Assembly: GCF_001431725.1 (NCBI RefSeq)
Contig: NZ_CP013106.1
Span: 1,426,001 to 1,490,000, forward strand
DNA: 64,000 nucleotides
From: Halomonas huangheensis
GTDB lineage: Bacteria > Pseudomonadota > Gammaproteobacteria > Pseudomonadales > Halomonadaceae
Reading direction: 5' to 3'
Position 1 is the stretch's first letter, and each line of letters opens with the position of its first letter. Below are positions 9,556 through 46,580 of this stretch, in pieces. A model generated the notes under the pieces. The model did not search any database, was not told where the DNA came from, and worked only from the letters and a program-made list of their open reading frames with translations. A program made the position numbers and the translations under genes.

Positions 9556-9609
9556 TGAGGAATTCCTCATTGTTGTGCTGGTGAGTGCGTATATTGCTAT
9601 TGTTGTTGG
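9556..9609 (-). promoter_or_regulatory. tctC leader: SD inside a 14-bp palindrome and two ACAACA motifs
   Basis: TGAGGAATTCCTCA (9556-9569) is a perfect palindrome that contains the tctC Shine-Dalgarno. In the transcript it is directly preceded by CACAACAAT, and further upstream by CCAACAACAATAG (9597-9609). The dyad could sequester the SD or bind a dimeric protein. The A-rich motifs resemble Hfq/Crc or GcvB-type target sites. Both readings are inference. Confidence 0.4.
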
Positions 9610-10896: not shown

Positions 10897-10913
10897 GATG
10901 TTGACTCCATTTT

Positions 10914-10993
10914 GATTGTTTTGGGTAACTTTTGATTGTTGTGAGTGGATTTAGAATGTTGTGCGTGGCTATCGATTGTTGGAGATAGCGGCC
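10914..10993 (-). repeat. Four diverged 20-bp leader repeats carrying ACAACA-type motifs
   Basis: On the plus strand GATTGTT or GAATGTT recurs at 10914, 10934, 10954 and 10974, exactly 20 bp apart. In the transcript of the 9913-10896 gene these read AACAATC, CACAACAATC, CACAACATTC and CAACAATC. The rest of each unit has diverged, but the motif and spacing are kept. This suggests selection on a reiterated RNA or protein binding site in the leader. Confidence 0.5.
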
Positions 10994-12140: not shown

Positions 12141-14861
12141 TCAAACTCCTGAAGTAGACGACGGTGGTGTGGAGGGTGGCGCCTGCACGGTGGCTAACTG
12201 CTTGCGCAATACGTAGGGCAGGATGCCACCGTTCCACAGATAACGGAGCTCCTGGTCTGAATCAATCGGCAATTCCAGAGCGATACTCTGGGTCGTCTCG
12301 CCACGGCGGATTGTCAGACTGACGGGGTTGGTGCCGAGCTGAAGGTGTTCGGGGAGGTGTATGTCGAACCGCTCATTGCCCGAGAGTTTCAGCGCCTCTG
12401 GAGTCTGGCCGCCAGTCAAACGCAGGGGCAGAATGCCCATCCCGATCAGGTTGCTGCGATGGATGCGTTCGAAACTGATGGCAATGACTGCACGTACTCC
12501 CAATAGCGCTTGCGCCTTGGCCGCCCAATCGCGACTTGAGCCAGCGCCATAGTTGTTTCCGGCGAACACCACCAGTGGGACATCGGCTTTGACGTAGCTC
12601 TGAGCCGCTTCATAGAGAGGTTGAGGGGCGGACTCGTCCAGCGGCCTCGCCCAGACCCCCTTGCCACCGCTGCTGGTACCCGGCAGGAGATTATCCACGC
12701 GGGAATTGGTGAAAGCACCTCGCAGCATGACTTCATGGTTGCTGCGCCTGGTGGAGTACTGGTTGAGGTCCTGGGCAGACTCGCCGTGTTCGATCAGGTA
12801 GCGACCTGCAAGACTCTCTGCCGGGATCGCGCCTGCTGGAGACATGTGATCGGTCGTCACATTGTCACCGAGTTGCATGATGACTCTGGCCTCTCGGATC
12901 GCCAGGCTATCGCGCGCAGTGCGTGGTACTGCCTCCAGGTAGCGGGGGCGACGAAGGTAGGTGGAGTCGGCAGCCCAATCGAAGCGCAGGCTGCCTTCGG
13001 CTTGTAGCTGCTGCCAATGCTCGGTTCCGTCCCACAGCGTAGCGTTGCGTCGCGAAAAGGCTTCCGGTACTACAACCTCATGGACGAGCGCATCTACCTC
13101 TTCGTCACTTGGCATCAATTCATGAAGGTAGACAGGATCGCCGTTGTCATCGTGACACAAGGGGTCGCGAGTGATGTCTCGAGTGACATCGCCTGCCAAC
13201 GCATAGGCCACCACCAGCGCGGGAGACATCAGGTAGCCGGACGATAGCATGGGATTGACGCGTCCCTGGAAGTTGCGGTTGCCGGATAGGATGGCAACAC
13301 CGTCCAGACCGTTGCGCACCAACTGGTGGACTTCCGGAATCAGGCCTCCGGAATTACCGATGCAGGTCATGCAGCCGAAGCCCGCGACCGCAAAGCCGAG
13401 CGCATCGAAGTCGTCCTGCAGGTTTGCCGCCTCAAGGTAGTCGCCGACAATCCGCGAGCCGGGTGACAGCGATGTTTTCACCCAGGGGCGGCGTTTTAGA
13501 CCACGGGCTCTTGCACGGCGAGCCAGCAGGCCGGCCTGAATCATCTCGGCTGGGTTGGCAGTGTTGGTGCAACTGGTGATGGCCGCGATGGCGACTGTGC
13601 CATGATCCAGCTCCATCACCCAATCGGGAGTATCGTCCGGTAGTTCCGAGTGTCGGCTGGTAGCCAGCAACTCCACGGAAGGACGTCCTGTTTGACGGTA
13701 GGAATCCGCGAGTTGGGCCAATGGGTGGCGTTCATGGGGTTGGTGCGGTCCGGCAACGCTAGGTTCGATGGCACTCAGGTCCAGCGTCAAACGCTTGTGA
13801 AAGCGCGGTTCGGGAGCGTCGTCTCGGCGCCACAGTTGTTGCTGCTCCAGATAGGTACCGACTTGTTCACGCAATTCCACGGAGCGACCACTAAGCGTGA
13901 GGTAATCCATGGTCACGTCATCGAAGGGGAAGAACATCACGGTAGCGCCGTATTCCGGAGCCATATTGGCGACAGTGCCGCGCGCTGCCCAACCAAGAGT
14001 CGATAATCCGGGGCCACAGAATTCCACAAACTTGCCGACCACGCCCTCGGAACGCAACAGCTCGGCAATGTTCAGTGCCAGATCCATGGCCGTGACACCG
14101 GGCGACAGGCCTCCCGTCAGATGTATGCCAACCACTTCAGGTAGCGTCAGAGTGACGGGCTCGCCCAGCACGGCAGCCTGTCCCTCCAGTCCACCTACGC
14201 CCCAGGCCAGAATACCCAGGGCATTGATCATCGGCGTGTGGCTGTCAGTGGCGACCATGTTGTCCGGGTGAATCCATTGGCGTCCCTGATCATCCTCTTC
14301 AGTCCACACCACACGAGCCAGCGACTCCATGTTGACCTGGTGGATGATACCGGTACCCGGAGGCACGACACTGAAGTTATCGAGACTCCGCTCTGCCCAT
14401 TTGATGAATCGATAGCGCTCGGCGTTGCGCCGGAAATCAATATCAAGGTTGCGTGCGAGGGCATCGGGATGGTCGAACTCCTCGACAATCACGGAGTGAT
14501 CGATAGCCAGCACCGCGGGAATCGACGGATTGATCGCGCGGGCATCACCGCCCAGTTCGTGGACTGCGTCGCGCAGACCTGCAAAGTCGGCGAGAGCAGG
14601 CAGGCAGGTCGTGTCATGGAACATCAGACGATTGGGATAGTAATTGACTTCGCCGCCGCTGGAACTGCCGTCGAGAAATGCCAGCAGGTCGGGCAGATTA
14701 TGTGGGGAACAGCGCGCGACATTTTCCAGCAGGATACGCAGTGAATAGGGCATTCGCTGCAATTGCTCCTGACTGACAAGGTCGCACAGGTCGATGTAGT
14801 GATAGTCCTGGTCGGCGATATGCAGCTTACGCGGTGATGGTTGTTGTGTTGTCACTGGCAT
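12141..14861 (-). CDS. acnA: Aconitate hydratase
   Basis: A 906-residue AcnA-type aconitase, full length (E. coli AcnA is about 890). The [4Fe-4S] ligands are C431 in ITSCTNTANP and C497/C500 in GFGCMTCIGNSG. The substrate-site stretches NMVATDSHTPMINALGILAWGVGG and GAGSSRDWAAKA are present. The start at 14861 has GAGGG upstream; an earlier Met at 14876 has no SD. It interconverts citrate and isocitrate via cis-aconitate. Its place in an uptake operon suggests a copy dedicated to imported tricarboxylates rather than the housekeeping enzyme. Confidence 0.93.
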   Translation of the reverse strand: MPVTTQQPSPRKLHIADQDYHYIDLCDLVSQEQLQRMPYSLRILLENVARCSPHNLPDLLAFLDGSSSGGEVNYYPNRLMFHDTTCLPALADFAGLRDAVHELGGDARAINPSIPAVLAIDHSVIVEEFDHPDALARNLDIDFRRNAERYRFIKWAERSLDNFSVVPPGTGIIHQVNMESLARVVWTEEDDQGRQWIHPDNMVATDSHTPMINALGILAWGVGGLEGQAAVLGEPVTLTLPEVVGIHLTGGLSPGVTAMDLALNIAELLRSEGVVGKFVEFCGPGLSTLGWAARGTVANMAPEYGATVMFFPFDDVTMDYLTLSGRSVELREQVGTYLEQQQLWRRDDAPEPRFHKRLTLDLSAIEPSVAGPHQPHERHPLAQLADSYRQTGRPSVELLATSRHSELPDDTPDWVMELDHGTVAIAAITSCTNTANPAEMIQAGLLARRARARGLKRRPWVKTSLSPGSRIVGDYLEAANLQDDFDALGFAVAGFGCMTCIGNSGGLIPEVHQLVRNGLDGVAILSGNRNFQGRVNPMLSSGYLMSPALVVAYALAGDVTRDITRDPLCHDDNGDPVYLHELMPSDEEVDALVHEVVVPEAFSRRNATLWDGTEHWQQLQAEGSLRFDWAADSTYLRRPRYLEAVPRTARDSLAIREARVIMQLGDNVTTDHMSPAGAIPAESLAGRYLIEHGESAQDLNQYSTRRSNHEVMLRGAFTNSRVDNLLPGTSSGGKGVWARPLDESAPQPLYEAAQSYVKADVPLVVFAGNNYGAGSSRDWAAKAQALLGVRAVIAISFERIHRSNLIGMGILPLRLTGGQTPEALKLSGNERFDIHLPEHLQLGTNPVSLTIRRGETTQSIALELPIDSDQELRYLWNGGILPYVLRKQLATVQAPPSTPPSSTSGV

Positions 14862-15016
14862 TTGGCCCTCGAGCATCGTGATGGCGGCTTGATGGCACGA
14901 TACCCCTAAGGGGGAACATCGAAAATTGAGGCTTGGGCAAGGACGAGTTCGTCGCTGGAGAACGCGAAGGTCCGAGAGGGCGAAAATAGGCGGTTGGGCT
15001 GAGGGAACTACAGAGC

Positions 15017-15901
15017 TCAGGACGCGCGAAGGTGCTCGACAAAGGCCCGTGCAGTGGGGGATAGCTGACGGAAGTCCCTTACTCCGATTCTCAGGTTACG
15101 AATCGCCCAGGGTTCATCCAGCGGAACGTCGGTAATACCGATGGAGTTGGCATAGATTCTGATTACGTGCCGAGGCAGCAGAGCAATTCCCAGTTCGCCA
15201 GCCACCAACTGGCACATGCAGTCAAAGCTGCTGACTCTTATCTTGATCGTAGGAGTCATACCGAGCTTTTCCGCCTCTTGAGTAATCTGCGCATAAAGAG
15301 CGCTTTCGGCATGAGAGGCGATCAACTCGTGTCGCAGCACTTCCGGGAAGCGCACCGTCTCGCGATCGCTCAAGGGGTGATTCACCGATACTGCCAGGCA
15401 AATCTCATCGCTACGGTAGGCAAAGGTCTCAAGATCCGGGGCCGGAGTGTGGCTGGCGAATACCCCCACATCAGCGCGGCCGTCACTGAGTGCTCTGACG
15501 ATGGCGGCTCCTACGCGTTCCTCGATATCCAGCCGGACACCGGGAAACTGGGTGGTGAAGGTCTTTATCTCTGCGGGTAGAAACTGCGCCAATGCCGAAG
15601 TGGTGGCATGTAGCTGAACCTGCCCCTTGATACCATCGGAGTAGTCACCCAACTCGTCTTCCAGGCGATAGAGAGCCTCGAACACCTGGCGAGTGTGGGC
15701 AAGCATGGATTGCCCCGCAGGGGTCAACTCCACACCGCGCGGATAACGTGTAAACAGCGGGGAGCCAACACGATGCTCCAGCTCGGCTATACGCTTGCTG
15801 ATCGCCGACAGTGCCAGGTGAGCGCGCTTCGACGCTCGAGTCAGGCTTTTTTCCTCAGCCACACACAGGAATATCTGCAGGGAAGTCAGGTCGAAGCGCA
15901 T
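15017..15901 (-). CDS. LysR family transcriptional regulator
   Basis: A 294-residue LysR protein. The N-terminal winged helix reads MRFDLTSLQIFLCVAEEKSLTRASKRAHLALSAISKRIAELE, followed by the effector-binding domain (GQVQLHATTSALAQFLPAEI; VAGELGIALLPRHV). It lies 155 bp upstream of acnA on the same strand, so it may be transcribed toward the operon it controls rather than divergently. It is the likely activator of the aconitase-lactonase-TTT genes. No SD is evident before the start. Confidence 0.88.
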   Translation of the reverse strand: MRFDLTSLQIFLCVAEEKSLTRASKRAHLALSAISKRIAELEHRVGSPLFTRYPRGVELTPAGQSMLAHTRQVFEALYRLEDELGDYSDGIKGQVQLHATTSALAQFLPAEIKTFTTQFPGVRLDIEERVGAAIVRALSDGRADVGVFASHTPAPDLETFAYRSDEICLAVSVNHPLSDRETVRFPEVLRHELIASHAESALYAQITQEAEKLGMTPTIKIRVSSFDCMCQLVAGELGIALLPRHVIRIYANSIGITDVPLDEPWAIRNLRIGVRDFRQLSPTARAFVEHLRAS

Positions 15902-16033: not shown

Positions 16034-16441
16034 TCAAGAATGCATAACGGCCCCTTTGGTAATCTTGTCGACTTGTTTTCTGTCGGCCCGTAATCCGATA
16101 CCGACCACGTTGTTGCGTTCCAGGTCGCTTTCTGAGAACACTGCACGGTTGGCTTCATCGTGGCCGGTGGTGAACATTTCCTCGATGTAGGTGGCCGTTA
16201 TTACCTCGCGCTCGCGGGCGCGCTGTCGGATGCGGCTCAGTGTTTCGGGGGAGGCACTGAGCACGATGACCGGCTGGCCGCAAAGGGGGAGGTGAGGGTA
16301 GCCATGGGCATCCTGGTAGCTGGCGCCAATGATGTCATCGTATCGTGCGGTGATCCCACTCATCAGAAACGCCGTTACGTTGAGCTTCTGCCATACGGCG
16401 AGATCTTCCCGGACCACGATGGCGATCTTGCTGGTAAACAT
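16034..16441 (-). CDS. DUF2000 family protein
   Basis: A 135-residue protein with the DUF2000 pattern: KIAIVVREDLAVWQKLNVTAFLMSG at the start, HLPLCGQPVIVLSA in the middle, and ERNNVVGIGLRADRKQVDKITKG at the end. GGAG precedes the start. The family is uncharacterised and often lies near amino-acid exporters and AraC regulators, as here (LysE and AraC upstream on the same strand, 57 bp before it). Confidence 0.8.
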   Translation of the reverse strand: MFTSKIAIVVREDLAVWQKLNVTAFLMSGITARYDDIIGASYQDAHGYPHLPLCGQPVIVLSASPETLSRIRQRAREREVITATYIEEMFTTGHDEANRAVFSESDLERNNVVGIGLRADRKQVDKITKGAVMHS

Positions 16442-35308: not shown

Positions 35309-36808
35309 TCAAGCAGTCTGCACGCTGCGATGACGGCGGTGGTGACGAATGGCGAGAACAATCGAGACAGCTGCCAGCACCAACAGAGCCAGCGATATGG
35401 GCCGAGTGAGGAACAGCATCCAGTTGTCGTCCGACATCAGCGCCCGGCGCAGGTTGGATTCGGCAATCGGACCAAGGATCACACCGAGTACCAAGGGTGC
35501 CAGTGGATAGCTGAGTTTGCTGAGGATGTAGCCGAAAATGCCGACGCCCAACAGTAGGTAGATGTCGGTAATGCGGTTGTTCAGCGCGAAGGCACCGATC
35601 ACGCAGCACACCAGTACCACCGGCACGATGATCGACTTCGGAATGGCGGTCACGCGCAGGAACAGTCGCATGCTGAATAGACATACCACCAGCACCATTG
35701 CGGCGGCCACCAGCATGGCCATGAACATGCCATAGACCAGATCGCCATGATCGAGTATCAATCTTGGCCCCACGCCGATGCCATGCACCATCAGCGAGGC
35801 CATCAGTACTGCATCCACGGCACTGCCGGGAATGCCCAGCGCGATCATCGGTATCAGGCCGCCGCCTGAAGTCGCCGAGTTGCCTGATTCAGAAGCAATC
35901 ACGCCTTCCGGGGTACCGGTACCGAATTTCTCGGGAGTTTTCGACGCGCGTTTGGCCTGATCATAGGCCAGCAGGTTGGCGATGCTGCCACCTGCGCCGG
36001 GTACCGCACCGATGAACACCCCGACAAACGATGAACGTACCAGGTTGACCGGGTAGCTGAGAGTCTCACGCATGCCGTCCAGCGGACGAAAGGAGACCTC
36101 TGTGGGCAGCAGGGGCTTGTTGTTTGCGACCTGGTCGGCGTCTTCGACTTCCGACAGCAACTGACTGACCGCAAAGATCCCGATCAGCACCACCAGAAAG
36201 GGGAAACCATTGGCCAGTAGGTCGCTGTCGAAGGTGAAGCGGGGCACCCCCATCATCGGGTCGGAGCCCACCGTGGCAATCAACAGCCCCAGTAATCCGC
36301 TCAACAGGCCCTTGAGCATTGATTTGCCGACCAGGCTGGCGACCACCGTCATGGCGAAGATGATCAGCGAGAAGTATTCCCAGGAGCCTAGTTTGACTGC
36401 CACCAGCGCTAGCGGGGGCGCAGCCACCATCAACACGATGGCACTGATCAAGGCGCCGAAGAATGACGCCCAGATGCCCAGTGCCAAGGCGCGTCCCGGT
36501 TGTCCTGCGCGAGCCATGGGAAAGGCATCAAAGGTGGTAGCGACCGAGGACGGCGTGCCAGGGATGCCCAGCAGCGCCGCCGAAATCAGGCCGCCGGAAT
36601 AGCCGCCGACGTAAACCGCCAGCATGGTGGCGACACCTTGCAGCGGTGGCATGGAGAACGTCAGTGGCAGTGTCAGCACGATCGCCATGGTGATGGTAAA
36701 ACCGGGAATCGCTGACGCGATCACACCGGCCACCACTCCCAACAGCATGGTAGCCATCGTGGAAAGGGTGAATAGCTGGTCCATGCCGGACAGCAGCGCA
36801 TCCATCAT
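35309..36808 (-). CDS. tctA: Tripartite tricarboxylate transporter, large permease TctA (system 3)
   Basis: A 499-residue TctA: VIASAIPGFTITMAIVLTLPLTF, YVGGYSGGLISAALLGIPGTPSS, and later GAVPGAGGSIANLLAYDQAK and GIPGSAVDAVLMASL. The start at 36808 follows AGGA; an upstream in-frame Met at 36841 has no SD. The protein is more diverged from systems 1 and 2 (GYSGG in place of AMYGG), so its substrate may differ. Confidence 0.92.
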   Translation of the reverse strand: MMDALLSGMDQLFTLSTMATMLLGVVAGVIASAIPGFTITMAIVLTLPLTFSMPPLQGVATMLAVYVGGYSGGLISAALLGIPGTPSSVATTFDAFPMARAGQPGRALALGIWASFFGALISAIVLMVAAPPLALVAVKLGSWEYFSLIIFAMTVVASLVGKSMLKGLLSGLLGLLIATVGSDPMMGVPRFTFDSDLLANGFPFLVVLIGIFAVSQLLSEVEDADQVANNKPLLPTEVSFRPLDGMRETLSYPVNLVRSSFVGVFIGAVPGAGGSIANLLAYDQAKRASKTPEKFGTGTPEGVIASESGNSATSGGGLIPMIALGIPGSAVDAVLMASLMVHGIGVGPRLILDHGDLVYGMFMAMLVAAAMVLVVCLFSMRLFLRVTAIPKSIIVPVVLVCCVIGAFALNNRITDIYLLLGVGIFGYILSKLSYPLAPLVLGVILGPIAESNLRRALMSDDNWMLFLTRPISLALLVLAAVSIVLAIRHHRRHRSVQTA

Positions 36809-36898
36809 GTTGGCATTCCTCTGTGATGATGGGTTCTGCAATGACTGGTTTTGTCGCTATTGGCCGTGTTGCTGGTGAGTATGTCGCGATTGAGCATG

Positions 36899-37453
36899 TC
36901 AGCCGAGCAGACCCCGCGGCAGGCTGATGACAAAGACCTCGCGGAACAGCAGGTCAATACCGAAGGAGAAACACAGCGCGATGACCAGCGCGATTGCCAG
37001 GCTGCGGGGAGTGCGCGCACCGAGCAGCCATTGCCCTGCGAGTACAAAACCCAGTGACGCCAGCGCAAATCCCAACCAGGGCACACAAAGGATGTAGACG
37101 GCCAATAGAGCCAGTACACCGAAGGCCAGACGATGGCGCTTGATCCACTCGCTGACCATTCCCGGTTTGCCCGCAGGTAGAGCGCGAAAGCGACGCAGCT
37201 CCTTGACCATGATGGCCAGGTTGATGACCACCAGGATGGCCAGTACCAGGCGCGGAAAACTGCCGGAACCCAGCGGTTCCCACATCGAGGAGGGCAGGTT
37301 ACCCGCCTGCAGGAATAGCGCGGTGAACAGCAGCGCAAGGCAGCCATTCAAGATCAGATGAGCCAGTGGTTCACCGCGGTTCATCTCTCTGCGCTGTGGC
37401 GATGGAACGGGCCGCTCCTCCGAGGAGGAGCGGGATGAGGATGGAGCGTTCAT
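36899..37453 (-). CDS. tctB: Tripartite tricarboxylate transporter, small permease TctB (system 3)
   Basis: A 184-residue TctB with a 25-residue Ser/Arg-rich N-terminal tail, then four helices (LNGCLALLFTALFLQAGNLPSSMW; LGSGSFPRLVLAILVVINLAIM; LAFGVLALLAVYILCVPWLGFALASLGFVLAGQWLLG; LAIALVIALCFSFGIDLLF). It overlaps the tctC end by 4 bases (ATGA), unlike system 2, where a hairpin separates them. Confidence 0.88.
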   Translation of the reverse strand: MNAPSSSRSSSEERPVPSPQRREMNRGEPLAHLILNGCLALLFTALFLQAGNLPSSMWEPLGSGSFPRLVLAILVVINLAIMVKELRRFRALPAGKPGMVSEWIKRHRLAFGVLALLAVYILCVPWLGFALASLGFVLAGQWLLGARTPRSLAIALVIALCFSFGIDLLFREVFVISLPRGLLG

Positions 37454-38418
37454 CGTGCCAACTTCCCAGCGAGGCGCTCGATGGTGGCATTGGTCTGCTC
37501 GAGGTATTCAGCGAAGGCCTCGGGCCCTTCATAGACTACGCTGGCACCAGCATTGTGGACTTCCCTGGCGTACTGTTCGTCGCCACTCATGGCTTCGAAG
37601 GCGGCAGCCAGGGTGTCGACCTGTGCCTGAGGAGTCCCCTTGGGGGCAAGAATGCCGCGAACGATATTCAGCTTGAGTTCGGGGTGGCCCAACTCGGCGA
37701 AGGTCGGCACATCCGGCGTTTCCTGCTGGCGCTCTTCACTGCCAACCGCGAGGAAGCGCAGATCCCCATTCTTGACGAACTCACCACTGGATGAGATATC
37801 GCCGATGGCGGCATCGATATGGCCACCGACCAGCGCGCGAATGCGCTCACCGGTACCCTCGAAACCGACATAGCGGAACTGGAGATCCTCGGCCTCTTCC
37901 ATCATCGCAGCATGAAGGTGGGGCACTCCGCCGAGGGTAACGCCGAAGCGGATCTCACCCGGGTGTTCGCTGGCGTACTCGACGAATTCCTCATAGGTGG
38001 TATAGGGCGCATCGCCCGGCACCGTCAGGTACTGAGGCGATTGAGTGACGGCAGCAACCGGCGTGAAGTCATCCCAGTTCTGCTGAGTCAGACCGGTGTG
38101 GTGCGCCACCATCAAGCCCTCGTGCACCTGACCGATGGTGTAGCCATCGGCATCGCGGCGCGCGAGGTCCTTGAGTCCGGTGGTGCCGCTGACACCAGGC
38201 ATGTTGATGACCGGCAGCGCCTGGCCGAGATGCTCCTCGGCATGGTGCGACACCAGTCGCATCAGGGTGTCGCTACCGCCACCCGGCGACCAGGGGACGA
38301 TGAATTCCACTGGCTTGTCGGGATAGCTATCATCCTGGGCCAGACTCACCGAGGCCGTGCCCATTGCCAGGCTGGCAGCCAATATCGCGGTGGTCATAGT
38401 AAAAGTTCGCTTGCCCAT
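37450..38418 (-). CDS. tctC: TTT periplasmic substrate-binding protein TctC (system 3)
   Basis: A 322-residue TctC. MGKRTFTMTTAILAASLAMGTASVSLA is a signal peptide, and the mature part has PDKPVEFIVPWSPGGGSDTLMRLVSHH, the typical ligand loop. I start at 38418, preceded by GAGGA; the longer frame to 38613 runs through tandem repeats. The leader carries six 16-bp repeats with CAACAATC motifs, and AACAACAAG directly before the SD, strongly suggesting post-transcriptional control. Confidence 0.9.
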   Translation of the reverse strand: MGKRTFTMTTAILAASLAMGTASVSLAQDDSYPDKPVEFIVPWSPGGGSDTLMRLVSHHAEEHLGQALPVINMPGVSGTTGLKDLARRDADGYTIGQVHEGLMVAHHTGLTQQNWDDFTPVAAVTQSPQYLTVPGDAPYTTYEEFVEYASEHPGEIRFGVTLGGVPHLHAAMMEEAEDLQFRYVGFEGTGERIRALVGGHIDAAIGDISSSGEFVKNGDLRFLAVGSEERQQETPDVPTFAELGHPELKLNIVRGILAPKGTPQAQVDTLAAAFEAMSGDEQYAREVHNAGASVVYEGPEAFAEYLEQTNATIERLAGKLAR

Positions 38419-38422
38419 CGGA

Positions 38423-38442
38423 GGAGTCCTCTTGTTGTTGAT
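38423..38442 (-). promoter_or_regulatory. AACAACAAGAGGA motif at the tctC ribosome binding site
   Basis: In the transcript AACAACAAG runs directly into the GAGGA Shine-Dalgarno of tctC. This is close to the CA motif (AAnAAnAA by the RBS) through which Hfq and Crc repress catabolic genes in pseudomonads. Presence of Crc in this organism is not shown by the window. Confidence 0.5.
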
Positions 38443-38532
38443 ATGAGAGATTGTTGATATGAGAGATTGTTGATATGAGCGATTGTTGAAATGAGCGGTT
38501 GTTAATATGAGCGGTTGTCGATATGAACTGCT
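38437..38532. repeat. Six 16-bp tandem repeats in the tctC leader
   Basis: Units begin at 38437, 38453, 38469, 38485, 38501 and 38517. The first two are identical (GTTGATATGAGAGATT) and the others differ by one to several bases. In the transcript nearly every unit presents CAACAAUC or CAACAACC. No spacer/repeat alternation exists, so this is not a CRISPR array. Confidence 0.85.
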
Positions 38533-38560
38533 CTTACTCTTACTCTTGCTCTTGCTCTGG
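38531..38560. repeat. Five 6-bp tandem repeats (CTCTTA/CTCTTG)
   Basis: CTCTTA, CTCTTA, CTCTTG, CTCTTG and CTCTGG follow the 16-bp array directly. Such short repeats are prone to slippage, so promoter spacing may vary between isolates. Confidence 0.7.
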
Positions 38561-38581
38561 TTCTGAATGGAAGCGTGAGCG

Positions 38582-38602
38582 GCGCCGAATCGATATCGGC
38601 GC
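38582..38602 (-). terminator. Hairpin after the CHR operon
   Basis: GCGCCGA and TCGGCGC form a 7-bp stem 18 bp past the stop of the 38621-39151 gene on the minus strand. There is no T run. It possibly ends the NhaC-GGT-CHR transcript and separates it from the tctC leader. Confidence 0.4.
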
Positions 38603-38620
38603 GACTTGCCCATTCCAGTA

Positions 38621-39151
38621 TCAGCCCAGCAACAGCGCGCCGTAGCCGAGGCCGAAGCACACCACCAGTGCCGGATGAATGCGTGTCTTCAGCAGCAGTG
38701 CCGCCGCGACGGCTGCGATGATCAGGGTGTGCAACCAGCCGGAGGCATCAACGCCTTCCTGTAGAAAGCTCCAGGTCAAGCCGGCCATCAACACCATGAC
38801 CACCGGGCGTACCCACTGACTCATCGACTTGACCTTGATCGAGTCGCGGTAGCGGTACAGGGTGCCCAGCGCTACCAGCATCAACAGGAGCGAAGGGCCG
38901 ACGGTGGCGAACAGTGCGACGAAGGCGCCGCCGATACCGGCAACGTCATAACCGATATAGCCGGCCATCTTGGTGGCGATGGGGCTGGGCAGAGCGTTGC
39001 CGAGGGCCAGGGTTTCGGCGAACTGCTGGTGCGTCATCCAGCCGTAGGTGCCGACTACCTCGTTCTCGACCAATGGAATGATCGCCGGGCCACCGCCGTA
39101 ACCAACGATGTTGGGGATGAAGAAGGCGAGAAACAGCTCCCAGTAGATCAT
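38621..39151 (-). CDS. Half-size CHR (ChrA-domain) transporter, subunit 2
   Basis: A 176-residue single-CHR-domain membrane protein. FFIPNIVGYGGGPAIIPLVENEVV (the GGGP loop) and LALGNALPSPIATKMAGYIGY are family signatures. Its start overlaps the preceding CHR gene by 4 bases. Short CHR proteins work as pairs in opposite orientation and export chromate in known cases. With a gamma-glutamyltransferase and NhaC in the same operon, another anion substrate is equally likely. Confidence 0.87.
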   Translation of the reverse strand: MIYWELFLAFFIPNIVGYGGGPAIIPLVENEVVGTYGWMTHQQFAETLALGNALPSPIATKMAGYIGYDVAGIGGAFVALFATVGPSLLLMLVALGTLYRYRDSIKVKSMSQWVRPVVMVLMAGLTWSFLQEGVDASGWLHTLIIAAVAAALLLKTRIHPALVVCFGLGYGALLLG

Positions 39152-39768
39152 GGCGCAGACTCCTCATTCTTCTGGAGGTCTGACTTGCGGCGTTGAGGGT
39201 CCGGGCGCAGCAGAGCCGCGATCAGAATGCCGCCGATCACCAGCCCCGGGTGTACGCCGAGCACGAGAATCAGCACTCCCGCCACAACGCCCATCGCCAG
39301 GGTCGCAATCAAGCCCATTCCGGCGCGGGACTTGGCGAAGAAGTCCCAGGTCAGTTGCGCCATCATCACCATCACCACCGGCACCACACCAAGGCCCATG
39401 CCATGCACCCAGCGCTGGTCGCCGAACAGCGCATAGATACCCAGCAGGCCGATCATGGCGATGACCAATGGCACCGTCACCGCGACCACGGCATTGATCG
39501 CACCGAAGGCACCGCCAACGCGATAACCAATATAACCAGCCATCTTGGTGGCTATCGGGCCGGGCAGCGTATTACCGATGGCCAGCACGTCAGCGAAGGC
39601 TTCGTCATCCATCCATGCGTAGCGTTTGACGACTTCCTGGTGGACCAGCGGGATCATCGAAGGACCGCCGCCGAAGCCGAAGATGCCGATACGGAAGAAG
39701 GCCATGAACAAGTGGCCCTGTCCGCGGACAGAATGTGGCGTGTCGGGAGAGGAATCGACCATGGTCAC
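39148..39768 (-). CDS. Half-size CHR (ChrA-domain) transporter, subunit 1
   Basis: A 206-residue single-CHR-domain membrane protein: FFRIGIFGFGGGPSMIPLVHQEVV and LAIGNTLPGPIATKMAGYIGY, then further helices and a charged C-terminal tail. The frame opens with GTG at 39768 overlapping the stop of the gamma-glutamyltransferase (GTGA); ATG at 39762 is an alternative start. It pairs with the next gene to form the two halves of the transporter. Confidence 0.87.
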   Translation of the reverse strand: MTMVDSSPDTPHSVRGQGHLFMAFFRIGIFGFGGGPSMIPLVHQEVVKRYAWMDDEAFADVLAIGNTLPGPIATKMAGYIGYRVGGAFGAINAVVAVTVPLVIAMIGLLGIYALFGDQRWVHGMGLGVVPVVMVMMAQLTWDFFAKSRAGMGLIATLAMGVVAGVLILVLGVHPGLVIGGILIAALLRPDPQRRKSDLQKNEESAP

Positions 39769-41426
39769 AGCACCGCAATGGCGGCATCGGTGCGTGGCTC
39801 AGTGCCGCCACAGTAAATACCGGTGTCGGGGTCGCGCAGGATCACCTGGCCGCGGCCATAGCTGCGGCTGTCATGGGCGACCTGCATATCGTGCCCACGT
39901 GCCGACATGGCACGCACCAGCGCCGGGGTGTAACCGTGCTCGATGCCGATGGTGCGTTCGCCCAGCCACTGCCAACGTGGAGCGTCCAGCGCGGACTGCG
40001 GGTTGAGCCCGAAATCGACCAGGTTCATCACTACCTGAACATGACCCTGAGGCTGCATGAATCCCCCCATCACACCAAAGGGGCCCAGCGCTTTACCGCC
40101 ACGGGTCAGGAAGCCGGGAATGATGGTGTGAAAGGTCTTCTTGCCGGGTTGCAGGCAGTTATCGTGGGTCTTGTCGAGGCTGAAATCATGACCACGGTTC
40201 TGCAGCGCGATGCCGGTATCCGGGACCACGATCCCCGAGCCGAAGCCGTGATAGTTGCTCTGGATGAACGACACCATGTTGCCGTCTGCATCGGCAGTGG
40301 CCAGGTAGACGGTACCACCGGCATTGGGCTTACCCGGTTGCGGGTCGATGGCCTGTTCGCCGATCAGTGAGCGGCGCTGTTCGGTATAGGCATCCGACAA
40401 CAGTTGTTCGACCGACCAGCTCATATGGTCGGGCTGAGAGATGTGCGCCTTGCCGTCGGTGTAGGCCAGCTTCATGGCCTCGAGCTGGCGGTGCAGCAGT
40501 TGCGGATCATCGCGGTGAGAAGGGGGGAAACCATCCAGAATGCGCAATGCCATGAGCGCCACCAGGCCCTGGCCATTGGGCGGGATTTCCCAGACATCGA
40601 CGTCGCGATAGCGTGCCGAAATCGGCTCGACCCATTCAGGGTGATAGCCCGCCAGGTCTTCCTTGCGCAGCAAGCCGCCGGTGTCGCGCGAGAAGGCATC
40701 GATCTGGTCCGCCAGTTCGCCGCGATAGAAGCTTTCCGCTTGAGTGCTGGCAATGCTCTCGAGGGTGCGGGCCTGGGCTTCGCAGCGCCACCAATCACCT
40801 GTCTGGGGCGCCTCGCCATCAACGGTAAAGGTCTCGAACCAGGGGCGGGTTGCGGCGCCTTTTTCCAGTTTGCGCTTGAAGTTGGCAGTATCACGCTGCC
40901 ACAGGCTGGCAATGATCGGAGACACCGGAAAGCCATCGCGCGCCAGGCGAATCGCGGGCTCAAGCAAGCTGGCGAAGTCGAGCTTGCCGAAGCGGCGTGA
41001 CAGTTCCGCCCAGGCAGAAGGCGTGCCGGGTACCGTGACCGGCGTCCAGCCGTAGAGCGGCATGCTGTCGTGTCCGGCCTCGCGTACGGCCTCTCGAGTC
41101 AGCGCCGCCGGCGCTGTGCCACTGGCATTCAGGCCGTGGAGCTGGCCATTGCCCTGCTGATCGCTGGCGATCCACACCAGCGCGAAGGCATCGCCGCCGA
41201 TACCGCAGCCGGTAGGCTCGACCACCGTCAAGGCTGCCGCTGTGGCGATTGCCGCATCTACCGCATTGCCGCCCTGAGCCAGAATATCGCGACCGACCTG
41301 AGCGGCCTGTGGCTGTGATGCCGCCACCATGCCATTGCGCGAATAGGTCGGGCTGCGGCGAGAGGGATAGGGCGTCGCATCGGGATAGCCCTTGGCGTCA
41401 GTATCGTTCGGGACCAGCGTAGTCAT
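39765..41426 (-). CDS. Gamma-glutamyltransferase family protein (Ntn hydrolase), no signal peptide
   Basis: A 553-residue GGT-family precursor: NGMVAASQPQAAQVGRDILAQGGNAVDAAIATAAALTVVEPTGCGIGGD near the start, and the autocleavage/nucleophile region with Thr in AGGTVYLATADADGNMVSFIQSN. PFGVMGGFMQPQGHVQV lies near the end. Unlike periplasmic GGTs it lacks a signal peptide, so it should act in the cytoplasm on a gamma-glutamyl or similar amide. AGGAG precedes the 41426 start. It is co-transcribed with NhaC (43 bp upstream) and the CHR pair. Confidence 0.88.
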   Translation of the reverse strand: MTTLVPNDTDAKGYPDATPYPSRRSPTYSRNGMVAASQPQAAQVGRDILAQGGNAVDAAIATAAALTVVEPTGCGIGGDAFALVWIASDQQGNGQLHGLNASGTAPAALTREAVREAGHDSMPLYGWTPVTVPGTPSAWAELSRRFGKLDFASLLEPAIRLARDGFPVSPIIASLWQRDTANFKRKLEKGAATRPWFETFTVDGEAPQTGDWWRCEAQARTLESIASTQAESFYRGELADQIDAFSRDTGGLLRKEDLAGYHPEWVEPISARYRDVDVWEIPPNGQGLVALMALRILDGFPPSHRDDPQLLHRQLEAMKLAYTDGKAHISQPDHMSWSVEQLLSDAYTEQRRSLIGEQAIDPQPGKPNAGGTVYLATADADGNMVSFIQSNYHGFGSGIVVPDTGIALQNRGHDFSLDKTHDNCLQPGKKTFHTIIPGFLTRGGKALGPFGVMGGFMQPQGHVQVVMNLVDFGLNPQSALDAPRWQWLGERTIGIEHGYTPALVRAMSARGHDMQVAHDSRSYGRGQVILRDPDTGIYCGGTEPRTDAAIAVL

Positions 41427-41469
41427 GGCGGCTCCTGTCATGGCTATTGAAGGTGGTTGTTGAAAATGG

Positions 41470-42912
41470 CTAGCGAGTCGACTGAGAAGTACTCAGGCGC
41501 TGTGTCGCGTGCTGATGACCGAGACCAATACCGGTCAGTACGTAGAACAGCGAGAACAGAATCGTTGCGTAGCAGAGAATCGCGTAGATGAAGAAGTCCG
41601 CCGTCGAGACGCCCAGCGTGGCGGCAGTAAAGGCGCCTGTGACACCCCAGGGCACCAGCGGGGAAAGGGTGGTGCCGGTATCTTCCATGATGCGCGACAG
41701 ATTCTTCGTCGGTGTGCCGCTGTTGGCCACCAATGGGCGCAGCAGCGGCCCCAGCAATGAAAAGGTCACGTAATAGCTGCCAGTCAGCAGGAAGGCCAGA
41801 CTGTGTAGGCCCATGGATCCGCCGAGCACCTGACGGCGTCCGGCCTGGCGCTTGTTGAGCATGGTGATCGCGGCATCCAGGGTACCGGCACTCTTGAACG
41901 GTGTGCCCAGCACGGAGGCGGCGATCAGCACCGCGACGGTCGACATCATGCTTTGTAGGCCGCCACGCGAGAGCATGTCGTCAATCATTTCGATGCCAGT
42001 GTTGGCGGCGTAGCCACCATTCATTGCCTGGCCGATCTCGGAGAGGCTGGCGTGTTGCAATAGCAGCGCAATGCAGGCACCACTCGCGATACCGATGGCA
42101 AAGGACGGCAGTACCGGCTTCTTCAACAGGATGCAGCCGAATACCACCAGCGGTGGAATCAGGGTGATCAGGTTGGTGTTGAACAGCGTGTGAAGTGTCG
42201 AGATGATCTCGGAGGTCTGCTCGGCAGTGCCGATTTCCGCAACACTGATACTGCTGCCCAACCAGGCGTAGACGCCTAACGCGATCAGGTAAGCGGGGAG
42301 GGTGGAATACAGCATATGACGAATGTGGCTGACGATATTGACCTCGCACACCGCTGCGGCCATGACGGTGGTGTCCGACAGCGGCGAAAGCTTATCGCCG
42401 AAGAAGGTACCGGTGATGATCGCGCCGGCGGCCCAGGCGGGCGGGATATCGAGGCCGATCGCAACTCCCATCAGGGCCACACCAATGGTGCTCAGCGTAC
42501 CCCAGGACGTGCCAGCCATGATCGACATCATCGAGCATGACAGGCAAGCCACCACCAGAAACAACGCAGGGGTCAGCAGCTCCAGACCGAGGGTTACCAT
42601 CGCTGGAATGGTGCCAGACAGCATCCACACGCCAACCATCATGCCGACGCAGATCAGAATCAGGATAGGCACCAGCATGGCCTGAATGCCCTTGAGCAGA
42701 TCGGCTTCCAGGCGTGCCCAGGGAATCCCCCACAACAGGCACAGGCCCATGGCCAGGCTACCGGCAACGATCAGCGACACCGCCGTGGGGATACCCAACA
42801 GCATGATGGAGACAAGCAGGGTGCCGATAGCAATGCACAGTAGCATCAGGTGACGAAAGCCGCTGAGTGATGGCGAGACGATAGTCTCAGCGGTAGTGCT
42901 GGAGTCGGACAT
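41470..42912 (-). CDS. nhaC: NhaC family Na+/H+ antiporter-like transporter
   Basis: A 480-residue membrane protein with 11-12 helices and NhaC landmarks: SCSMMSIMAGTSWGTLSTIGVALMGV, GAIITGTFFGDKLSPLSDTTVMAAAV, and late MEDTGTTLSPLVPWGVTGAFTAATLGVS. Members exchange Na+ for H+ or for an organic solute such as malate and lactate. As first gene of an operon with GGT it may import a substrate rather than only extrude Na+. CCACAACAACG lies about 40 bases upstream in the leader. Confidence 0.88.
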   Translation of the reverse strand: MSDSSTTAETIVSPSLSGFRHLMLLCIAIGTLLVSIMLLGIPTAVSLIVAGSLAMGLCLLWGIPWARLEADLLKGIQAMLVPILILICVGMMVGVWMLSGTIPAMVTLGLELLTPALFLVVACLSCSMMSIMAGTSWGTLSTIGVALMGVAIGLDIPPAWAAGAIITGTFFGDKLSPLSDTTVMAAAVCEVNIVSHIRHMLYSTLPAYLIALGVYAWLGSSISVAEIGTAEQTSEIISTLHTLFNTNLITLIPPLVVFGCILLKKPVLPSFAIGIASGACIALLLQHASLSEIGQAMNGGYAANTGIEMIDDMLSRGGLQSMMSTVAVLIAASVLGTPFKSAGTLDAAITMLNKRQAGRRQVLGGSMGLHSLAFLLTGSYYVTFSLLGPLLRPLVANSGTPTKNLSRIMEDTGTTLSPLVPWGVTGAFTAATLGVSTADFFIYAILCYATILFSLFYVLTGIGLGHQHATQRLSTSQSTR

Positions 42913-46460: not shown

Positions 46461-46500
46461 CGCGACTTCCTCATTGTTGTTGATGCTTGTTGTTGATGCT
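46461..46500 (-). promoter_or_regulatory. Dehydratase leader: AACAACAATGAGGA and a duplicated 13-bp unit
   Basis: In the transcript AACAACAATGAGGA (46468-46481) places the CA motif directly before the SD. The surrounding 13-bp unit TGTTGTTGATGCT occurs twice in a row on the plus strand (46475-46487, 46488-46500), giving a second copy of CAACAACA. This is the same arrangement as in the tctC leaders. Confidence 0.45.
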
Positions 46501-46540
46501 TGTGGCTGGAGCTTTTCATTGAATGCTAGGCGCGGATATT

Positions 46541-46580
46541 ATTGTTGGCAAGATTATTGACAATTTTATTGGCGATCTAC
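46541..46580 (+). promoter_or_regulatory. Candidate promoter/operator between the dehydratase and tctC (system 4)
   Basis: ATTGT (46541) and ACAAT (46560) make a 24-bp spaced dyad. TTGACA (46557-46562) followed 18 bp later by TAGCTT could be a promoter toward tctC. Three TTATTG repeats lie in the same stretch. It is a likely site for the GntR regulator. Confidence 0.4.

Follow-up and report, generated by a model that had tools for sequence, protein, structure and literature searches.

Here, we identify an A-rich motif abutting the Shine-Dalgarno (SD) sequence of a Halomonas tctC gene and, going by sequence comparisons, consider it fairly likely that this motif serves as the Hfq/Crc site in a CbrB/CrcZ-type circuit whose translational target is the tctC leader. 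The motif is probably an Hfq/Crc site because the host genome encodes Hfq, Crc and a CrcZ-like RNA, because leaders of this genome are biased towards the same word, and because the word is conserved within a conserved gene run. In the proposed circuit, Hfq hexamers would bind the A-rich AACAACAAG at the SD via their distal face when a preferred carbon source is present; Crc would clamp the Hfq-RNA complex, and 30S loading on tctC would be blocked. Once the preferred carbon source is exhausted, CbrB and sigma54 would make the CrcZ-like RNA, the AACAACAA loops of which would titrate Hfq and Crc and thus allow TctC to be made. The components, the motif, the leader bias, the conservation and the gene run were established by computation; from these we infer Hfq/Crc binding, repression, the direction of control and any role of the tandem array in the leader. 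If the circuit is right, Halomonas, which serves as a chassis for industrial bioproduction, would join the hosts of Hfq/Crc-CrcZ catabolite repression, and its decoy RNA would be one that escapes the Rfam CrcZ model. Among the titles listed by searches of a mostly open-access literature, none was on a Crc/CrcZ circuit in Halomonas.

The window, i.e., the whole 64,000-nt stretch analysed (G000:C1:1426001-1490000), is part of the host genome G000, which comprises 4.76 Mb in one contig; genes were called with our own codon-score script and not with a standard caller. The leader and its gene contain the following features:

37450..38418, minus strand: tctC, tripartite tricarboxylate transporter solute-binding protein, 322 aa (PF03401, E 3.3e-43; SD and signal-peptide-like N terminus)
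38419..38620, minus strand: chrA-tctC intercistronic leader, 202 nt
38427..38431, minus strand: GAGGA SD of tctC, read from the sequence, inside a predicted 4-bp mini-hairpin GAGG-ACU-CCUC
38431..38439, minus strand: AACAACAAG abutting the tctC SD, the best candidate Hfq/Crc site
38432..38527, minus strand: tandem array of six 16-bp units, CTCATATCAACAATCT-like, the last unit ending AACAACAAG (TRF, with units read in register)
38527..38556, minus strand: hexamer tract AAGAGC/AAGAGT, a second tandem tract of ten consecutive ARN triplets (TRF row 38531-38558; ARN run)

The preliminary description had placed AACAACAAG directly against the GAGGA SD, and this is borne out: on the minus strand, 38427-38440 match CAACAACAAGAGGA without a mismatch, as no other place in the window does. 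An AAnAAnAA word that overlaps or abuts the SD is what an Hfq/Crc target mRNA should have, and here AACAACAA at 38432-38439 lies against GAGGA. Within a run of four ARN triplets, AACAACAAG is the sole full AAnAAnAA of the 142-nt leader. ARN runs cover 66 of these 142 nt compared to 26.9 nt (sd 8.3) in dinucleotide shuffles, and not one of 1000 shuffles reached 66. The AAGAGC/AAGAGT tract upstream of the array had been overlooked in the first reading of the sequence.

Several observations argue for a functional Hfq/Crc system acting on such a motif. First, the search for hfq and crc that the preliminary description had called for was positive for both. Hfq is encoded in the genome, and a Crc-like gene sits between pyrE-like and rph-like genes (named by ORF resemblance). 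The best PDB match of its product is P. aeruginosa Crc (E 2.4e-76), with 120 of 249 aligned residues identical. In an alignment with the exonuclease homologue 2jc5, an active Neisseria enzyme, the host protein is ExoIII-like with a broken nuclease signature, i.e., QEL, GDWN and SDH, intact in 2jc5, read QNL, GTWH and SEY. The signature is also broken in P. aeruginosa Crc, and both Crc proteins read RKRRE where 2jc5 has NEGRD. The basic patch for RNA contact (K77, K135, R138, K139, R140 and R141) is fully identical between host and P. aeruginosa Crc, as are the dimer residues E142, E193, R229 and R230 together with W161 and R196, while eight interface positions differ (R137, K155, M156, R162, N184, F231, R233 and W255); these roles are those assigned in the excerpts of PMC6422490 and PMC9890229 used here. 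As judged from these alignments, the host Crc is catalytically degenerate and keeps the RNA-binding patch of Pseudomonas Crc. The protein is 92% identical in the relative G010 and 94% identical in the relative G011. Co-occurrence of Crc and the motif across the class was tried as a further line: 142 of 184 genomes match Crc at E<=1e-20; however, the three other matches inspected (L132-L134) keep the nuclease signature, and this count, therefore, mixes Crc with ExoIII-type enzymes and is not discriminating.

Second, a scan of the available sequence for clustered CA motifs picked out one host region, which is intergenic, belongs to L111 and packs four motifs into 220 nt:

L111:15713-16080 (G000:C1 about 4435713-4436080): CrcZ-like RNA with a sigma54-like site, between a cbrB-like gene and pcnB

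The flanking genes encode an NtrC-type response regulator (cbrB-like, 13902-15401) and PcnB (at 16343), with gluQ-RS and dksA further before and folK and panB after pcnB, all named by resemblance. The Pseudomonas order is dksA-gluQ-cbrA-cbrB-crcZ-pcnB-folK-panB; in the host genome, cbrA is not adjacent to cbrB. The sigma54-like site AGGCACGAGAACTGCA lies at L111 15713-15728, ∼15 nt ahead of the first AACAACAA, and the pattern occurs only twice, this site included, in 928,000 strand-nt of the host sample. In Azotobacter, crcZ and crcY are RpoN-dependent according to the excerpt of PMC6292655 used here. The host RNA folds with a z of −5.2 and exposes its AACAACAA motifs in hairpin loops; in the predicted folds, 11 of 12 AAnAAnAA words are unpaired, compared to 13 of 13 in G011 and 8 of 11 in G010. 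Both relatives in which this region was examined share the layout, with a CrcZ-like RNA upstream of pcnB and a sigma54-like site in each (G011, L338 from 14165; G010, L334 minus strand from 2685). At the expected place of cbrA, G010 has a 978-aa ORF; in G011 (L338 13893-14892), no cbrB separates gluQ from the CrcZ-like RNA, though Crc and the RNA are kept. The locus resembles CrcZ and CrcY of the Pseudomonadaceae in its position between cbrB and pcnB, its sigma54-like promoter and its many AACAACAA-type loop motifs, and differs from them in the separate cbrA and in an otherwise diverged sequence. The Rfam CrcZ model (RF01675) gave 0 hits genome-wide, with control genomes also without a hit, and on the decoy locus itself it scored 10.5 bits, far under the gathering score of 95; for this reason, we refer to the RNA as CrcZ-like and not as CrcZ. 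We suggest that the host genome encodes a CrcZ-like RNA, and we propose that it titrates Hfq and Crc. Further 3' of the CA motifs (L111:16050-16200), GTCGTGGTTGGATTATTGTTTTGAATACGAG and later GTATTCAAGGCGATGCGCCATCACGAAGAAGAATCAGCAG are nearly unchanged in G010 and G011.

Third, the word is overrepresented in leaders of the host genome. Among hexamers seen at least 6 times at −60 to −10 of 373 sample leaders, ACAACA, CAACAA and AACAAC are the three most enriched (37, 38 and 31 occurrences vs 8.0, 10.0 and 7.7 expected), and since their reverse complements occur 2, 4 and 2 times, i.e., under expectation, the enrichment is strand-specific. A search for CAACAA-SD-ATG returned 73 matches, 68 after merging overlaps, of which a gene filter kept 38 and rejected 30; one filtered-out place, at 3268884, looks real: an array precedes a gene of 208 aa there (L202). 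Solute-binding proteins are encoded by 13 of the 38 genes (5 TctC, 5 DctP and 3 ABC-type) vs 1 of 40 controls (p 2e-4), the controls being a random draw from a pool of 166 that may include internal operon genes; four further genes encode DcuC or NhaC-type carriers. With all transport genes pooled, the contrast is weak (17/38 vs 9/40, p 0.03). The pattern precedes 5 of the 18 TctC genes of the host genome; among the 18, three starts (L122, L125 and L130) were mis-called inside the gene.

Fourth, the motif is kept within a conserved gene run, which in the window comprises, besides tctC:

41470..42912, minus strand: NhaC-like transporter gene, head of the run (ORF; label from resemblance, not from a family search)
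39765..41426, minus strand: gamma-glutamyltranspeptidase (GGT) gene (PF01019, E 2.4e-155; synteny)
39148..39768, minus strand: second chromate-transporter-like gene, with 4-nt overlaps with its neighbours (ORF; label by gene order and resemblance; syntenic hits)
38621..39151, minus strand: chromate transporter gene, directly upstream of the tctC leader (PF02417, E 4.8e-40)
36899..37453, minus strand: tctB (ORF; label from resemblance and gene order; synteny)
35309..36841, minus strand: tctA (ORF; label from resemblance and gene order; synteny)

The order GGT-chrA-chrA-tctC-tctB-tctA on one strand is found in 29 of 31 Halomonadaceae loci; in L041, the contig starts inside the chrA pair, and L054 is without GGT and chrA. 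An NhaC-like gene heads the run in 5 of the 31 loci (hand count of rows), and in the window the leader of this gene also has three CAACAA motifs. The composition of the run at 35309-42912 points to an operon that takes up a glutamyl compound. Gene junctions in the run are overlapping or short, and tctC is probably an internal operon gene; its leader would, therefore, be transcribed even without a local promoter. Named relatives of tctC come from Halomonas (H. cupida, 87%; H. litopenaei, 80%), Chromohalobacter, Modicisalibacter, Salinicola, Kushneria and Aidingimonas, and alphaproteobacteria are more remote. Of the tctC leaders of 31 Halomonadaceae loci, 20 have AACAA adjacent to the SD, whereas 31 of 272 leaders of other genes at these loci do; after collapsing similar leaders because relatives are not independent, the tctC count is 9 of 17; by the pattern used, 11 of the 31 orthologues are without it. 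A looser count over 120 nt gave 23 of 31 tctC leaders vs 29 of 136 controls. Among alphaproteobacterial orthologues, 5 of 11 have such a word, ∼80 nt upstream of the start, and 7 of 41 controls do.

Some findings count against the circuit. In G011, the leader hexamers are in only slight excess over expectation (CAACAA 12 vs 8.8, AACAAC 9 vs 6.8 and ACAACA 21 vs 9.8) despite Crc and the decoy RNA. Moreover, SD-proximal CAACAA exceeds the reversed control also in same-class genomes without a Crc-like hit, e.g., 23 vs 3 in G092, and part of the signal may, therefore, be generic leader composition. The host genome has the highest raw SD-proximal count among 184 same-class genomes (73 vs 13), although not the highest per base. 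Also on this side are the 11 orthologues without AACAA, the weak contrast for all transport genes, the eight Crc interface differences, the separation of cbrA from cbrB, the G011 locus without cbrB and the scan between chrA and tctC, which found no promoter-like site.

The 16-bp array most likely reflects expansion in this lineage and may modulate the SD site. TRF reports a 16-bp period x5.8 with 90% matches at 38435-38526, and its score of 135 is the top among 37 window rows. In register, the units are TTCATATCGACAACCG, CTCATATTAACAACCG, CTCATTTCAACAATCG, CTCATATCAACAATCT (twice) and CTCATATCAACAACAA; the two identical CTCATATCAACAATCT units are near the SD and the two 5' units are degenerate. 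The preliminary description had seen a CAACAA-like motif in each of six units. Six units are present; however, exact CAACAA is found in four of them, with the two 5' units reading GACAAC and TAACAAC, and AAnAAnAA is confined to the SD-proximal end. The array and the AAGAGC/AAGAGT tract would have arisen by lineage-specific tandem duplication and would not be the conserved part of the leader; their ARN runs may nevertheless provide weak Hfq contacts upstream that can be tuned.

An alternative, which we regard as unlikely, is that selection favored the array as a docking site in several copies, in which Hfq hexamers bridge neighbouring AACAAY units, repeat number sets strength or cooperativity, and slippage provides a heritable rheostat. 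In its favor, the tctC leader has the highest ARN coverage in a sample of 195 fully intergenic leaders that includes the window, being the only one to reach 66 nt. Similarly, in the excerpt of PMC9890229 used here, P. aeruginosa leaders, that of rbsB among them, assemble several Hfq through blocks of ARN repeats that differ in spacing and contain imperfections. On the other hand, a strong version of this idea would have AAnAAnAA in every unit, whereas the 142 nt hold one such word and the units carry two ARN triplets, two in each of four units and no run of two in the 5'-most. Other leaders of note in the host genome are:

8569-9555 gene, leader at 9556..9608, minus strand: another tctC, CAACAACAATAGCA ... 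CAACAATGAGGA
10897..10981, minus strand: leader of a third tctC (start 10896), 20-bp imperfect CAACAATC array
46461..46550, minus strand: leader of an IlvD/Edd dehydratase gene, 13-bp CAACAACAAGCAT array ending CAACAACAATGAGGA
G000:C1:1883766-1883848 (L158, L124): leader of a TctC paralogue, independent 15-bp CAACA-cored array ending CAACAAGAGGGGA at the SD before the start codon

The 15-bp unit of the paralogue is unrelated to that of tctC and is likewise CAACA-cored and ends at the SD, and CAACA-unit arrays end close to the SD of further genes in the host and in same-genus genomes (at loci chosen for CAACA arrays), both of which favor a docking array. Also in its favor, some short tandem repeat is present in 11 of 31 named Halomonadaceae tctC spacers, and 9 of these 11 units contain CAAC (hand reading of the table). 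By contrast, the preliminary description had proposed to compare the repeat across related genomes, and the tctC 16-bp array is in no other tctC leader among the relatives examined; thus, it is not a conserved array. The finding that the preliminary description held to speak against its own reading, i.e., repeats persisting in a relative without the motif, is seen in part: in the G011 tctC leader, a 15-bp repeat without the motif spans −150 to −117 and CAACAA is absent, yet AACAAGGA is kept at the SD.

Short arrays are also frequent in intergenic DNA in general, as the 74 kb of intergenic DNA in a 464-kb host sample (L093-L112) contain 50 non-coding arrays with periods of 9-30; CAACA or AACAA is in 6 of these 50 units in printed orientation (hand reading). 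Array density per kb intergenic DNA is 0.67 in the host, 0.92 in G011 and 0.11 in G010, with mostly unrelated units. G011, therefore, has many arrays and a slight motif excess, whereas in G010, ACAACA and CAACAA are also the top leader hexamers and arrays are few, which argues that motif and arrays are separable and, in the case of G011, against a docking array. Finally, in a genus-wide reversed-word control over 90 genomes, ACAAC arrays were as frequent as CAACA arrays (157 vs 125 matches; host genome 12 vs 23), i.e., without CAACA excess, in a comparison that is not clean because ACAAC is also found in CA-rich leaders; near-start arrays with the motif are sense in 5 of 14 cases vs 1 antisense, which is too few to decide. 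CA-cored arrays ending at SDs fit slippage within CA-rich leaders and selection for more half-sites alike.

Known systems offer points of comparison. In the excerpts of PMC9890229 and PMC6422490 used here, the Pseudomonas amiE, estA and rbsB leaders, rbsB being described as a putative ribose transporter gene, carry A-rich ARN blocks where translation of these uptake or catabolic genes starts, with several imperfect, variably spaced blocks in each leader. The tctC leader is like these targets in having several ARN blocks at the start of an uptake gene and unlike them in that its extra blocks come mostly from the 16-bp array and the hexamer tract, and in its Halomonas-type host. Because multi-block ARN leaders are already known from P. 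aeruginosa (excerpt of PMC9890229), the array would be a variation and not a novel class. With VNTR-like intergenic repeats, the array shares 16-bp direct repeats that are most alike near the SD, lineage specificity and the presence of many arrays in the genome; unlike these, it ends exactly in an SD-adjacent motif kept in many relatives. A broader idea, to which we give little credence, is a Halomonas-type CbrB-CrcZ-like-Hfq-Crc circuit in which, in the lineage of the host genome, slippage in intergenic DNA would repeatedly expand a lone CA motif next to an SD into an array of ARN half-sites (units of 16 bp at this tctC, 15 bp at the paralogue and 13 bp at IlvD/Edd), with repeat number tuning repression of each uptake or catabolic gene as an evolvable translational rheostat. 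With natural tandem arrays of half-sites, one could directly measure how Hfq/Crc repression depends on the number of sites.

It is similarly doubtful that the CA-rich leader is a generic, unstructured landing zone for ribosomes that raises translation independently of any regulator. The widespread excess of SD-proximal CAACAA over control among the 184 same-class genomes would fit this scenario, and so would the SD-proximal half of the array, which is predicted to be unpaired except for the mini-hairpin. However, the whole leader is no less structured than shuffles (z −1.55 and −1.04), and the motif set favors solute-binding-protein genes, with ribosomal protein genes at 0 of 38 vs 2 of 40 random controls, which are small numbers. 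Moreover, the CrcZ-like RNA repeats this very word in its loops.

A role of the array as DNA, i.e., as operator repeats or as part of a tctC promoter with the transcript start inside or below the array, is very improbable: direct repeats can be operators and a gap of 202 nt could hold a promoter; however, no sigma70-like site was found in 38380-38900 at the scan threshold, the conservation of the gene run in 29 of 31 loci indicates that the leader is probably read through, and the unit sequence is unconserved among relatives. Least probable of all is pairing of the leader with a GcvB-type small RNA: GcvB targets CA-rich leaders of binding-protein genes, a class to which the tctC leader belongs, but RF00022 gave 0 hits in the host genome with a positive E. 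coli control, a search outside which a diverged G/U-rich small RNA would fall. Of the two repressors that the preliminary description had offered, GcvB is accordingly dropped, and Hfq/Crc is retained on the grounds of Crc, a CrcZ-like RNA with the motif, strand-specific CAACAA enrichment and the bias towards solute-binding proteins.

The spacer between chrA and tctC, 202 nt here, varies from 80 to 181 nt among the 30 named Halomonadaceae loci for which it was measured, a range that depends on the choice of start codon. In Salinicola halophilus (L063), this spacer contains a perfect 7-bp TCGCAAC repeat x11.7.
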